Positions 369 to 15,811 of a DNA stretch of 15,936 nt are shown piece by piece (positions within the stretch are counted from its first letter, which is position 1; each line of letters starts with the position of its first letter). The stretch is taken from the NCBI GenBank assembly GCA_902459845.2, contig CABPSV020000212.1, positions 6,954-22,889 of the forward strand, in the 5' to 3' direction. The notes beneath the pieces were generated by a model. That model was not told where the DNA came from. It saw only the letters and a list, made by a program, of their open reading frames with translations, and did not search any database. A program made the translations under genes and the position numbers. The DNA is from Hepatocystis sp. ex Piliocolobus tephrosceles. Lineage: Eukaryota; Apicomplexa; Aconoidasida; Haemosporida; Plasmodiidae.

Positions 369-376
369 ATGGATAA
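362..376 (+). promoter_or_regulatory. Five-codon uORF overlapping the selenoprotein start
   Basis: An ATG at 362-364 opens a frame reading M-K-N-G-stop that ends at 376, past the main start codon at 369-371. Ribosomes starting here would bypass the main start unless they reinitiate. The arrangement is seen directly; an effect on translation is inference. Confidence 0.4.
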
Positions 377-1059
377 TAAAAGAGAAGATAAAAATAAAGA
401 ATATGAAAGTGTTTTAAAAGATAGGAAGTTGAAATATGAAAAATTAAAAAGAAATAGTTTTACCAATAACCGGTTTTTATTATCAATAGTAGGCTTTATA
501 AAGTTTATTTGGAATTGCTTGATATCAACTATAAACATTGTAACACATAAACAAATAAATAAATAAATATACAGATATGATATATGTAGTTTCTAATATG
601 TTGGTATACTTATAAATGGCTTGTATAAATTTATAAAATGTGTTATCTAGTTAAATCATACTTAGGTTAAAATATATATATTTTTTTTTTTTTTTTTAGT
701 TACGCATATTTTTAAGAACTTTATTCGGATTAGCTGATGACCCACATGTATTTTTTTTTTTATTTTTTTTTAAACACATTTCCTTTTATTTTTTTATTGT
801 TACAAATTTATAACTATGTAACAGTTACACAATTATTACATGTTATTAGTGTGTGCGACATACGAGTATATGTGCTATTTGCTTCATTTTTTTTTTTTTT
901 TTTTTTTAACTATTTTTATAGGGTTTAAAAGGTCAGGGAAATGATGGCAATGATGGTAATAATGGTTTTGGTAAAAAAAAAAAAATAGGTACTTTACATA
1001 AAGCAAACATAGTGGAATTAAAAAATTTAAGTACCTGTTTGGGTAGCACATGAGGATAA
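369..1059 (+). CDS. SelK-like selenoprotein, three exons, C-terminal Sec-Gly
   Basis: Model: exons 369-539, 700-747 and 922-1059, all phase 0, with introns GTAACA…TTTTTTTAG and GTATTT…TTTTTATAG. The product is 118 residues. Residues 1-35 are Lys/Glu-rich. One membrane segment follows (about 36-57, FLLSIVGFIKFIWNCL…), then LRIFLRTLFGLADDPH from the middle exon, which resembles the FFKTLL stretch after the membrane helix of selenoprotein K. Next come a Gly/Asn-rich part (GQGNDGNDGNNGFG), a Lys run and a tail ending CLGST-Sec-Gly. The TGA at 1051-1053 is followed by one Gly codon and TAA, as in selenoproteins with Sec near the C-terminus. A SECIS structure lies about 110 nt downstream, strong independent support for recoding. 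Plasmodium is known to make a few selenoproteins, some distantly related to SelK/SelS; which one this is I cannot say. SelK proteins sit in the ER membrane and act in ER protein quality control; that role here is inference. ATG 369 is the first start in frame, since TGA precedes it at 363-365. Confidence 0.85.
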
Positions 1060-1152: not shown

Positions 1153-1226
1153 ATAACTCATAAATGATTTGCTAATTTTGAAAATACATTTAACATGTAT
1201 AAAATAGCGATGAACAATGATGTTAT
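1153..1226 (+). promoter_or_regulatory. SECIS element (selenocysteine insertion, 3' UTR)
   Basis: The strand folds by eye into a textbook eukaryotic SECIS. Helix I: ATAACTCAT (1153-1161) pairs with ATGATGTTAT (1217-1226), leaving one bulged T. A small internal loop AA/ACA follows. The quartet comes next: ATGA at 1164-1167 faces TGA at 1211-1213, giving the tandem A·G and G·A pairs plus a U·U pair (1168/1211). Helix II: 1169-1179 pairs with 1201-1210 (core GCTA/TAGC and TTTT/AAAA, with A1175 bulged). The unpaired GAAA at 1180-1183 supplies the conserved AA. Helix III is ATACAT (1184-1189) with ATGTAT (1195-1200), closing a 5-nt loop. This is the form II layout. It begins about 100 nt after the TGA at 1051, a workable distance. 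It would recruit the SECIS-binding protein and Sec-tRNA elongation factor. Confidence 0.88.
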
Positions 1227-2550: not shown

Positions 2551-3534
2551 TTTTTTTTTTTTTTTGTTTTATTTTATTTTATTTTTTTTTTTTTTCATCA
2601 ATACCATTAACAACCACATACAGCCAAGTTGAATGACAACTCCAGGTACATCGAAATGAGAATTCACAAATCCGTTAGTATATATTCTTATTTCATGGAT
2701 ATCGCTCAGTGGCATAACAACATAAAACGAATATAATATTATACGAAAAAAAAAGTAAGATAAAACAAAACATGTATAAGATATATTTAAATAGAATTTG
2801 TATTGAGACTTGGAATAGACTATTGCTTTTGATAAATATAGTAATATATCTACTACATCATGAACAAGAAGAATAACTAATCCAACCCTCCAAAAATTAA
2901 GCATATGTGAATATGTTAACAGTGATATAGTTGATATATGATGTGTTACAAAAACATAATAATCTTTCCTTTTTTTTTCAAATTTTAAATAAAATAAACA
3001 AGACGACCAAAAACTTATCTGTAATATATAAAAATAATAAACATAATTATTTATATACATATATGGCCATCCTCTTTTATTTTCGTTATATTCATCTTCT
3101 GTAACTAAAAAAAACCATTTTCCTGTCGTTTCTTTTAAACACATTTTTACCCACCCATTTTTATTATTGAAATAACCTGACATAGATAGCAATAAAATAA
3201 AGTTATATAAAAATGAAAAACTGTGCCATAACGCAAACCAAACATTTTCTTTCCATTTATATTCCGCTCCATCTTTAGATATATTCAATTTGTAATTTAC
3301 TTTATCTAATAAAGATTTATTACATCGGTTATATAAAATACTTCCTTTTTTTATTACATCACTACGTATCCCCGTAACCAAAAAACGTAATATAATCATA
3401 CCAATAAAAATTATTAAAAATAAATATATGTCCCATATTGATATTTTTGGATTTAGTATATAAGTTTCAGTAAAACTTAGATTTTTATAATTGTTAAAAT
3501 ATTTATCTAATGTGTGTAGGTAATGTGTGGTCAT
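1836..3534 (-). CDS. Ceramide synthase (LAG1/TLC domain), three exons
   Basis: Exons in coding order: 3534-2605, 2180-2117 and 1930-1836, giving 362 residues. The protein is a multi-pass ER membrane enzyme that N-acylates a sphingoid base with acyl-CoA to make (dihydro)ceramide. The diagnostic Lag1 motif is at residues 198-235: the His pair (H198, H199), STISLLTYSHMLNFWRVG, then VHDVVDILLYLSK with D226 and D229. Hydrophobic segments lie near 33-53, 100-118, 163-182, 198-235 and 250-275, with a last one built across the first splice (…CMWLLM joined to LLHCYWFYLIIKM). The Trp-Phe-Tyr stretch is typical of the final TLC helix. The last exon gives the acidic tail DVRSDDEDEK, matching the RSD-acidic tail of many ceramide synthases. 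Intron 1 is ATG|GTATTG…TTTCAG. The intron 2 donor is taken as A|GTAATA (2116); T|GTGGAG at 2101 also keeps the frame and would lengthen exon 2 by 15 nt. No Hox-like domain is present. Confidence 0.92.
2481..2548. repeat. 68-bp poly(T) run inside ceramide synthase intron 1
   Basis: There are 68 uninterrupted T on the plus strand, so 68 A in the pre-mRNA, followed by further T-rich sequence to about 2595. It lies just downstream of the intron 1 donor and is non-coding in the spliced model. Exact length is likely to be variable and prone to sequencing error. Confidence 0.9.
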
Positions 3535-6158: not shown

Positions 6159-9100
6159 TTATTCAAATTCTGCTTCACAAAAGTTTTCAAAACTTAACCT
6201 TCGAACCGATCTCTTCTTTTCCTTTTCTATACTTTTTCTTTTCACTTCACATGCATAATTTATTGTGTTTGTAAGCGACTTTCTTTTTTTTAATTCAGTT
6301 TGTTCTATCTTAAACTCGTCATCATTTATCAATTTGCTCCTACTGTTATAGCCACTCACACTGTTATAGCCACTCGCACTGTTATATACATCCACACCAC
6401 TATATACACCCACTTCTCTACACACACCCACTTCGTTATTTACACTAATGTACATGTCATTGCCTCTTTGGTTATTTATTCCAAAAAGTCCATTCTGTTT
6501 TATACCAATATCTACATGGGTATTATAACCGAAATCATTGATTTCATTTACCATGCTTAGCTGTTTGTTGTTATTATTATTAATATAACCATTGGCAGAA
6601 TTCAAATTCGAAGTGTGATTATTTAATAACATATTTTTGTTTTTTACATTATCTTCATTTTTAACTTGTATCATATTTATATATTTATTGTATGACTCAA
6701 AAAAAAGAAAAAAATTAACAAAAAAATCTTCAGAATGTATAATTTTTTTGTTTTCATCAGTATAACTAAAAAAAGGAAAAAATGGTTTAATATCTCCAAA
6801 CCAAATAATAAGAATTAAATACTTTTTAATTAAAAGAACTATATTCCAAATAATATAAAGCATTTTTTTATAATTATCTTTAGTAAATTTATCTATTTTT
6901 TCTAAAAATTTATCTTCATCACTTATAACTGAATTATTATTTGTACTGGAATTAATATCAACTCCTATTTGTTCAGGTAATTTCGATGATATTTTATCAT
7001 TAATTTCTTTTTCACATAAAATACAACAAGACATTTGAAACTCGTTGTTATACATTTGGTTTAACAATTCTAAATAACAATTTATAAAATCAACAGATTT
7101 TTCATAAATATCTTTTACACAAAATTTATTTATTTTTTTAAATTCATTTAATTCTTTGTCAGTAAATATTTTTCCTGTATGTTCAGCTAAAAGAAGCATA
7201 ATACACTTTTCTCTTGATATTCGACCATTTTCTAAATATCCATACAATTTTTCCATTTTTTTCAATACAACATTCCAATGAAACCATTTATAATTTTTTG
7301 GTGTGTTTAACCAATTACATAAAAATAAAATATTACAAAAAAGTTGTTTTAATAAAATATGTTTATTTATTATCAAATCAATCATATGTAATTTGTTTAT
7401 TATATGTTTTAGTAAATCTTTATATATATAATCAAAATTTTCTATTAATATTAAATATTTGAATCGTTTATGTATATTTTTTATCGAACAAATAAATAAA
7501 CAAAACTCTTCATCTTCTAATATGTTAAAATCATCGTTCTTTTTTTTTTTATCTTCTTTATTTTTTATATTATATTGTTCTTTCGATAAATTTATTACGT
7601 TTTTAGATAAATTACTTCCCTCATTTTCGATTGTGTCATTAACTGTTGAAAAATAATCATTCATATTTAATCCATTGTTGTTATAATTATTCATTTTTTT
7701 CATATAATCATATTGCTTAAAATTAAATTTATCTTCCTTATTACTACTACTACTACTATTTTTATTATAATATTTATTGCGTCCGTTATAATCAGTGTCA
7801 GAATCATTTTGGTCTGATACACTTGTGTCTGACCACTCTGTATCTAATCCAGCTTCTACTCTATCTTTAACGTTTTGTTTTTTTTTTAAAAAATATTTTT
7901 TTATTATTTCTTTTTTTTTATCTGCTCCCACATGCGCATCTAACTGTTTTACTGTTTCATTCCAAAGTGAAAAATGTTTACTAAATTCATCAGGTATAGT
8001 ATGTAAAATAATTTCAAGAGTAGAAGAATCACAAGTACATTTTATAATTGATCTTATAATACGTTTCAAATTTTTATATTCATTTCTTCTTTTCAATGAA
8101 CATAACATTATCGTTATAGGTTGCGAAAAGTATCCAATACAACTAGCTCTTGTTATTTTTTTTTGAAATCTAAAATTAGTTCCACTATTTTTAGAATCGG
8201 GTAACATTTTTGTATTTATTTTTTGTTTTTTTTTTTTAGTAAACCATAATTCTAATCTTTTATCATTTATTAATGAAGCAGATGGAACCAATGATTCACT
8301 AGCTATACAATAGAATATAGACACCCCAATATATTTAATTATTTCATTTTTTATTTCATCAGAAGATTTAAAATAAATAATTTTATTTTGTTCTTCTTTT
8401 CCACTCTTCATAGAACTACGTTTAAAAAGAATTTCATTAAGTCCATCCTTATCATACATACTTAAACAAATCATACCAGAAGTAACAGTGTTTTTTTCTT
8501 TTTTTAGTATTTTATTATATTGAATTATATTTTGTATATGTTTTTCACTTGCTATATAACTATCTTCCACTTTTTTGTAATAATGTAAACCTTCATTTAT
8601 GGCAACATCCAAATCAACTAAATCCAGTGTAATATATTCAAAATTTAAATTCATTTCAATGTGAAAATTGGCTCGATTATTATCTACTATGTTATGTTTA
8701 TTCATTTGATCATTTTCTTTTGTTTCTGAAACAGAACCTGCAACAGAACCTGCAACAGAACCTGCAACAGAACCTGCAGCAGAACCTGCAGCAGAACCTG
8801 CATCTGAATCTCCACAGGAAAGTAAATTTTTCTTCAAAGAATTAGTCAAAGGAATTTTATTTAACATTAATCTCTCTTGTTTTTTTAAGTTTAATTCATC
8901 ATTAACTCGTCCTGTTTTTGTCAAATCATTATAATTTTCGTCTTCTATTTTTATTGTCATTACGTCTGTTCCTACTTCTCCCCATGTTCCTACCCTTACC
9001 TTTTCTTCTTCGTCCATTGTCTTTTCTTTATTTCCTTGCGCTTTTAATCGCATTACTTCTTTATTTATATTTAGAATAACATTTTTTCGATTTAGTAACA

Positions 9101-11402
9101 ATGCATCATTTAGTTTGTTCGACTCATTATTGATATGTAAACTGTAATGTACATCTGATGATTTTTCTTGTTTAATCAAATTTTTATTTATATTCAATTC
9201 ATCAGAAAATGGTATTATATTATTTTTTATATTATTAGTTAAGTCGTTAATGTTATTTAATTTATTATTGTTTGACATACTTATGTTTGACATATTTATG
9301 TTTGACATATTTATGTTTGCATCTCCTGTATCATTTTTTTCATTTTCTTTAATATTATATAATGATTTTGAGATACCATCATCAGCCATATATAGAACTG
9401 TATCGGTCATTGTGCTGACATCCTTTTTTATCGTATTATATGTATCTGTCATAGTAGTACTAGTAGTAGTACTAGTAGTATTACTAGTGGTATTACTAGT
9501 GGTAGTACTACCAGTACTAGTAGTAGTAGTAGTAATATCACTCGTAGAAACATATCCTTCCGTAGTATCATTTTTACAAAATGTATAATTACCTTCAAAG
9601 AAACTTTCTACATCTCCCATCGTCAAAGGAGTATATAAAGAAATCAAATAATCAGTCAGTTGTTTATTCATTTTATGATTCTCTTCTTTTTCATTTATAA
9701 TATTGTTTGAAATATTATTAACACATTTTGAATTTTTGTTAATTTCTTTTAAATCTTCTTCAGACATATTTTCTTTTTTAATTAAATCCATATATTTATT
9801 ACTATCGTCACATTGAGCATTCGATATTTGTATTCCACTATTATTACCACAACCATAGTTAATATTATTTATTCTGTTTTTTGAATTCACATTAGTTATT
9901 ATTGAATTGTTCGAATATGATGAAAATTCATCTTCTAGTTTTCTTTTTTTTACTTCATTAGAAGGTGTATTATATTTATTATAAGATGTTTTATTTATAT
10001 TGTTGTTGTTAATTAGCTGATTGCTATTATTGTTACTTGATATACTAGAAGTATTTTTTTTTTTTAAATAAATGCTATTATATAAATGTCCTGGTTTTAT
10101 TATATTCAATTTGTTATTGTCGTTACTATTTGTTGCATTATTTTTGTTAAAAACAGACAACTTACTAGCAGCTAGTAAATTATCATTTGAATTTGCACTT
10201 ATATTACTAGTTTTATTTTTCATTAGTTTCGAATTTATGTAAATACTTTTATTTATATGAGAAGACGATGATGACATAGATCTAATGCTACTACTAGGAA
10301 CAAATGTACTTTTATAAATACTACTTTTTACATCTTTTTTATGAACAACTGTATTTATATTTCCTATATTGTTATTTACATATACACTTTTATTATGTAG
10401 AGTATCCTTATTGTGTAGAGTATCCATTTTTTTTATACCTCCAGTGATACTATTATTTATATTCCTACTGATATTTCCCATTTTTAAATTCTTATCTACA
10501 TACACACTTTTATTTAATTTAGATGTTGTACGAATTTGCGAGTATTTATTACTAGTGTTATTATCATTATTATTATTTTTTACATATACTGATGGATTAA
10601 TCATTTTTTTGTTTTTTATTTCTAAGGGTGAAACAGCCTTAGATGTATTATTATTATTTATGCTGTTACTATTATTTTTGCTATTATTATTGCTATTATT
10701 ATTGCTATTATTTGATATAATTGTACTTTTTTTATTTTCACAATATTTTACATACCCTTCAGAATCTTCTTTATATGTACTAAAATCTAAAGCGCCTAAG
10801 CTTATATAATCTGATTTATTTTTCTCATTTATAATAGAAATGTTTTTATTATTTTTGAAATTTGTAACATCGTTGTTTGAGAGTTCATTAGCACCGTCGT
10901 CTCTAGTACTGTTGTATTTAATACCATCATCCTTAAGCTCATTATCATTTACCTCAGTAAATATATTTTTGCTACACTCCAACATATCATGATCGTAATT
11001 ATTTTCATTTTTACATATTATGTTTATATTATTTAATTTATAATTTTTTATTATATCTAATGATATTTTTTCTTTATTAATATCATCAGTTATATTATCA
11101 AATTCATTACCTGAACAATAATTCTTTTTTAAATTCTTAATTATATTTATTTCTTCTTCTAACACACTGTCTATTTCCTTCCTTTTTTTGCAACATTCTA
11201 AAAAATCTTTATCATTAACATCGTAATTATTCTTTTTTATTATACTTTCATAACATATTATTATATTCATAGACTTTAAATATGCATATCTGTAGTTGTT
11301 TAACAAGCGCAAAAGCTTATCGCTTAACTTTTTAAGTTTCGCATTTTCCTACAAACGTGTCATAATAAAAAAAATAAAAAGAAAAAATATAAATACTCAT
11401 AC

Positions 11403-15303: not shown

Positions 15304-15811
15304 TCACTCTGATGAAGCTTTTTTAAGATATTCAATCAAGTCTGCTCTTTCCTTTTCTTTCTTAATACCAGCAAAAATCATTTTTGTTCCTGGTATGTAT
15401 AATTTGGGATTAAGTAAGTATTCAAATAAATGTTTATCACTCCAAATAATACCAGAATTTTTATTAGCATCAGAATAGGGGAAATCAGATTCTCCAGATT
15501 TTCTACCATAAAAGTTATATAAGTTTGGTCCTTGTTTTACTGCCCCTCCTTTTGTTTAAATAAAAAAAAGCAAAAAAGAAAATTAATATATATGTATATA
15601 TATGTATATATATACATATGAATACAAGAATTACTTAGTGTCATTTTTTCAGTAATTTAAACACAGTTTTAAACGTAAAATATGTTAATATTTTTTATTT
15701 TTATTTTTTACCTTTATTAATTGTATGACATTGAGCACACTTTGCTTTGAAAAGTTTTGCTCCTTTCTTATAATCACCAGCAGGAACTTCTACATTTGGT
15801 TCTGGCCTCAT
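15304..15811 (-). CDS. Cytochrome c, two exons
   Basis: Exons 15811-15712 and 15548-15304 give 114 residues. This is the soluble haem protein of the mitochondrial intermembrane space that carries electrons from complex III to complex IV. The haem-binding motif CAQCH has C25, C28 and axial H29; the second axial ligand is M90 in [14 protein letters not shown]. Other hallmark blocks are [44 protein letters not shown] and [17 protein letters not shown]. The C-terminal helix is [16 protein letters not shown]. The intron (15549-15711) has GTAAAA…AAAAG borders and splits the Gly34 codon after its first base, directly after the haem motif. The acceptor CAAAAG lacks a good pyrimidine tract, but the frame and family alignment leave no doubt. 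Length is normal for the family and all key residues are present. No cleavable presequence is visible, as usual for cytochrome c. Confidence 0.97.

Follow-up and report, generated by a model that had tools for sequence, protein, structure and literature searches.

The stretch of DNA analysed here, called the window below, covers 15,936 nucleotides of a Hepatocystis contig; its GC content is low (16-26% per kb), and the draft genome to which it belongs amounts to 12.39 Mb in 611 contigs. Near its start, on the forward strand, lies a real, small gene of malaria-parasite type, predicted to be spliced from three exons and followed downstream by a SECIS-like hairpin (Table 1). Three further features were noted on the minus strand of the window: a TLC-domain gene at 2569-3534 (TRAM_LAG1_CLN8, E 5.6e-27), a 1717-codon open frame at 6159-11312, rich in Asn and simple repeats, in which no Pfam match over cut-off was found, and a probable cytochrome c exon at 15304-15555 (NCBIfam Cyt550 domain, E 2.1e-23, under the model's cut-off).

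Table 1. Features of the three-exon gene and its downstream region, in window positions.
Feature	Position	Strand	Description
Exon 1	369-539	+	57 codons; a charged N-terminal region, in which DRKLKYE is conserved, and the greater part of the hydrophobic segment
Intron 1	540-699	+	Phase 0, GT...AG, first bases GTAACA; six of ten homologues unbroken across the junction
Exon 2	700-747	+	16 codons, LRIFLRTLFGLADDPH; the hydrophobic segment ends here; full-length counterpart in seven of ten homologues
Intron 2	748-921	+	Phase 0, GT...AG, first bases GTATTT
Exon 3	922-1059	+	Tail rich in Gly/Asn and in Lys, with the invariant ELKNL..CLG block, then TGA, Gly, TAA
In-frame TGA	1051-1053	+	Position 117 of 118 if Sec; then GGA 1054-1056, TAA 1057-1059
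SECIS-like hairpin, 3' UTR	1153-1226	+	Core ATGAT 1164-1168 opposite TGAA 1211-1214

The length of each exon is a multiple of three, and a scripted join of the three yielded 116 codons followed by TGA, GGA and TAA. One codon, for Gly, thus separates the TGA from the TAA, and the product is 118 residues long when the TGA is read as Sec. The first-pass annotation had proposed three phase-0 exons, a product of 118 residues and a penultimate TGA followed by Gly and a stop; its exon coordinates proved exact, with GT...AG flanks, and the residue count and the order of the last codons were recovered as well. A search of the draft genome with the spliced protein returned a single matching locus, which is the present gene (exons 1 and 3 matched).

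When the spliced protein was used as query, it retrieved two proteins of P. malariae that carry the name 'selenoprotein, putative' (E 4.9e-20 and 1.7e-14). In a second search, with the alignment of these two proteins, 10 of 426 candidates passed E <= 10, with E-values from 5.5e-58 to 3.6e-12. Nine of the ten come from named Plasmodium species (two each from P. malariae, P. knowlesi and P. falciparum, one each from P. ovale, P. fragile and P. inui), and in the alignment all ten share 41-60% identity with the Hepatocystis protein. Besides the P. malariae proteins (P0001 and P0002), P. knowlesi P0006 is also named 'selenoprotein, putative'; the P. ovale, P. fragile and P. inui proteins (P0003, P0004 and P0005) bear the UniRef name 'Selenoprotein', and P. 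falciparum P0007 is labelled 'hypothetical protein'. Among viral contigs, 216 pattern matches contained no relative, and the comparison with solved structures gave a single match, at E 0.31.

Because ten homologues were found at such E-values, the exon frame is not a product of chance. It might be objected that the DNA is AT-rich, a setting in which fortuitous open frames could have been joined, and that two database models (P0002 and P0008) lack exon 2 entirely. Against this, six of the ten homologues (P0003-P0007 and P0009) run without a break through both junctions, and the middle exon of only 16 codons has its full counterpart in seven. We consider fortuitous joins extremely improbable. 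The remaining irregularities have the look of gene-model errors: P0001 is without six residues of exon 2, and this loss, like the complete ones in P0002 and P0008, looks like faulty modelling, while P0010, which is continuous over the second junction only and whose shared part starts at exon 2, looks like a chimeric gene model.

At the other end of the protein, a block ELKNL..CLG located just before the TGA contains eight positions that are invariant in all 11 rows of the alignment (the homologues and the Hepatocystis protein), and the C-terminal residues of the ten homologues all read CLG(S/N)(S/T). Their protein records end, without exception, in the column just before the TGA. That standard annotation would truncate or miss such a gene had been predicted beforehand, and the damage can be seen in the databases, where the TGA column closes all ten records and exon 2 is partly or wholly missing from three.

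The question is then whether the TGA is read as Sec. A hairpin found downstream bears on it (Table 1). SECIS elements share a core, a helix II, an AA bulge and a mini-stem, and all four are present here, in this one species: the core UGAU, opposite UGAA, permits tandem G.A pairs, helix II has 10 pairs with a one-base bulge, the 5' bulge GAAA (1180-1183) contains AA and lies 12 nt past the core, and the mini-stem is formed by ATACAT/ATGTAT. From one side of the core to the other the hairpin covers 1164-1214, and the core begins 113 nt downstream of the TGA. Matched to the consensus, the hairpin would have the layout of a type II SECIS. It scored 9.9 with a simple SECIS descriptor and was the sole plus-strand match at or above 7.5 in the window; with both strands counted there were three matches, the other two being minus-strand places at 8.1. 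In the other loci fetched, 15 more matches scored from 7.5 to 9.4, the best one in a poly-A stretch. Shuffling of the 776-nt downstream stretch gave a score of 9.9 or more in 13 of 2000 cases, and the fold energy had a z of -1.7, a stability that 42 of 500 shuffles equalled or exceeded. The significance of the hairpin is moderate. An Rfam scan of the window gave no family at gathering score, and between 900 and 1850 no SECIS family was among the 21 sub-threshold matches at E <= 10. The downstream SECIS announced by the first-pass annotation was located at 1164-1214, though without an Rfam match.

We searched the genome for the enzymes of Sec synthesis. SepSecS is encoded (298 bits, for a curated cut-off of 224.85), and so is SelD (202 bits, cut-off 125). 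The gene of the latter, a selenide, water dikinase, lies on the minus strand of a separate locus (L017:682-3114). Its open frame counts 810 codons or more, is interrupted by an insert of low complexity and is much extended at the N-terminal end. The Rfam model RF01852 for tRNA-Sec gave 11 matches across the draft, none over cut-off and each an ordinary tRNA according to ARAGORN; with two sequence patterns for the same tRNA, one gave no match and the other three AT-rich places that by eye are not tRNA. The tRNA-Sec gene is perhaps absent from this incomplete draft, or too divergent for RF01852. The EFsec domain PF21208 had no match in the genome, and controls gave none either.

Should the TGA be an ordinary stop, the protein would be 116 residues long, and the Gly codon, the TAA and the hairpin would be coincidental. 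The end of all ten database homologues at this column fits such a reading, as do the 13 shuffles that matched the hairpin score and the lack of an Rfam SECIS match or of a tRNA-Sec. However, truncation of a record at the Sec codon is a usual database error: in SelK, Sec comes directly after GG, and 80 of the 120 SelK-related records listed end in GG. Moreover, the succession TGA-GGN-stop is rare (3 of 1679 TGA triplets on both strands of the window and of loci L001-L017, the present gene included) and it coincides here with a well-placed SECIS, in a genome that encodes SepSecS and SelD and in a family already annotated as selenoprotein. An ordinary stop is very improbable in our opinion. From the SECIS, the Sec enzymes of the genome and the annotation of the family, we infer that the protein very probably carries Sec at its penultimate position; the proposal of a selenoprotein gene with a C-terminal Sec-Gly thus agrees with the names given to its homologues, with the shape of the hairpin and with the presence of both enzymes.

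The same genome has another gene interrupted by an in-frame TGA (L013:41-1105), which favours the Sec reading of the present one. It starts with an ATG and 24 residues resembling a signal peptide, and 329 codons follow the TGA. A SECIS-like hairpin lies at 1501-1567 of this locus (SECIS_1 22.5 bits for a cut-off of 35, E 0.4; descriptor score 9.5), and for the part downstream of the TGA neither Pfam nor NCBIfam gave a match at E <= 0.001. Judged by these features, it is a probable second selenoprotein gene of Hepatocystis.

The Hepatocystis gene is not the founder of a new family. Since Plasmodium selenoproteins are already annotated and published, the family is known and the present gene is a further orthologue. 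A passage of PMC12486841 puts the selenoproteins identified in P. falciparum at four or more, and an excerpt of PMC3473315 reports that Sel1-Sel4 were found in apicomplexan parasites and have no homology in other species. For Plasmodium selenoproteins the same two excerpts cite papers of 2006 and 2012, and the primary papers, Lobanov 2006 and Mourier 2005, are listed by title among the references of PMC5330540. The Plasmodium selenoproteome is termed reduced in a passage of PMC2375036, and a dissenting statement in the part consulted of PMC7539508 gives a number of selenoproteins below 4, with none in most Plasmodium. With the present gene, this small family of malaria-parasite proteins gains one more genome. 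It also illustrates the harm done by routine gene modelling, the Sec end being cut in every record and the tiny exon lost wholly or partly in three.

We next consider the protein itself. The highest mean hydropathy over 19 residues is 1.85, at residues 37-55. By the same measure the ten homologues range from 0.66 to 1.88; five of them fall under 1.6, four of which are shortened or chimeric models, and these four have the lowest values. The strength of the hydrophobic segment is moderate. A Cys is found five residues before the Sec column in all 11 family members.

Taken together, we hold with high confidence that this three-exon gene encodes a small, probably membrane-anchored selenoprotein, with Sec inserted at the UGA, and that it is the orthologue of an annotated Plasmodium selenoprotein. 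After splicing, the ribosome would reach the UGA one codon ahead of the real stop, where the hairpin of the 3' UTR, together with the standard eukaryotic factors (SBP2, EFsec and Sec-tRNA), would place a Sec, giving a C-terminus ...Cys-Leu-Gly-Ser-Thr-Sec-Gly. The hydrophobic segment (about residues 37-67) would most likely serve as membrane anchor, probably in the ER. The polar, flexible tail would then bear Sec and the invariant Cys as its redox centre, possibly joined in a selenenylsulfide as in selenoprotein S. By analogy with the latter, the product most likely acts in redox chemistry as a small protein anchored in the membrane, with its Sec and a Cys at -5, and the invariant Cys-X4-Sec tail gives rise to a definite hypothesis on this chemistry that can be put to the test.

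The first-pass annotation had called the protein SelK-like. As a description of layout this stands: a single hydrophobic segment is followed by a Gly-rich tail with the TGA near the C-terminus. Membership in the SelK family did not stand to the same degree. Of the 11 family members, 10 are matched at E <= 10 by the Pfam family SelK_SelG (PF10961), with E-values of 2.4e-4 for the best and 0.0094 for the Hepatocystis protein; none of seven reversed sequences is matched. The profile score lies above those of all 400 column shuffles (200 full, 200 block), and the two families have in common an FFKTL-type motif where the hydrophobic segment ends, a Gly-rich tail and a Sec near the end. On the other hand, the Hepatocystis protein scores 17.0, under the curated 23.3. 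When seven sequences of the Plasmodium-type family were compared with 15 SelK proteins by hhalign, the match, around FFKTL, covered 16 columns with a probability of 10%, and the reversed profile scored higher than the real one (22.8 against 21.8). The excerpt of PMC3473315 also gives the Plasmodium families as having no homologues in other species, a published view on which a possible SelK link bears. We lean slightly towards a true, very divergent SelK/SelG member rather than a Plasmodium-only family of similar layout; such a membership is compatible with the orthologous, Sec-containing membrane protein proposed above.

Three known systems can be set beside the Hepatocystis protein. To the Plasmodium orthologues P0001-P0007 it is homologous from end to end (50-60% identity), and it shares with them the invariant C-terminal block and, at the protein level, an end at the TGA column; the database models of the orthologues differ in that they stop before the Sec, and in that part or all of exon 2 is missing from P0001 and P0002. 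The tail of SelK is Gly-rich with Sec close to the C-terminus. To SelK/SelG (PF10961) our protein is similar by its small size, one hydrophobic segment, the FFKTL-type motif, the Gly-rich tail and the position of Sec, whereas it remains under the Pfam cut-off, carries a Cys at -5 from Sec, and has a charged N-terminal region of 35 residues and an ELKNL..CLG block without counterpart in the match. Selenoprotein S (VIMP) is a membrane protein with a penultimate Sec-Gly and a tail Cys paired with Sec. The selenoprotein S family was not among the Pfam matches of the Hepatocystis protein and its family members; a membrane segment, the penultimate Sec-Gly and a tail Cys would be common to both, and the spacing between Cys and Sec is different. 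It is tempting, if rather doubtful, to combine the last two likenesses, in which case the protein would be a divergent ER selenoprotein of SelK type with a Cys-Sec pair of its own, that is, a selenenylsulfide switch like that of selenoprotein S carried on a SelK-like anchor.
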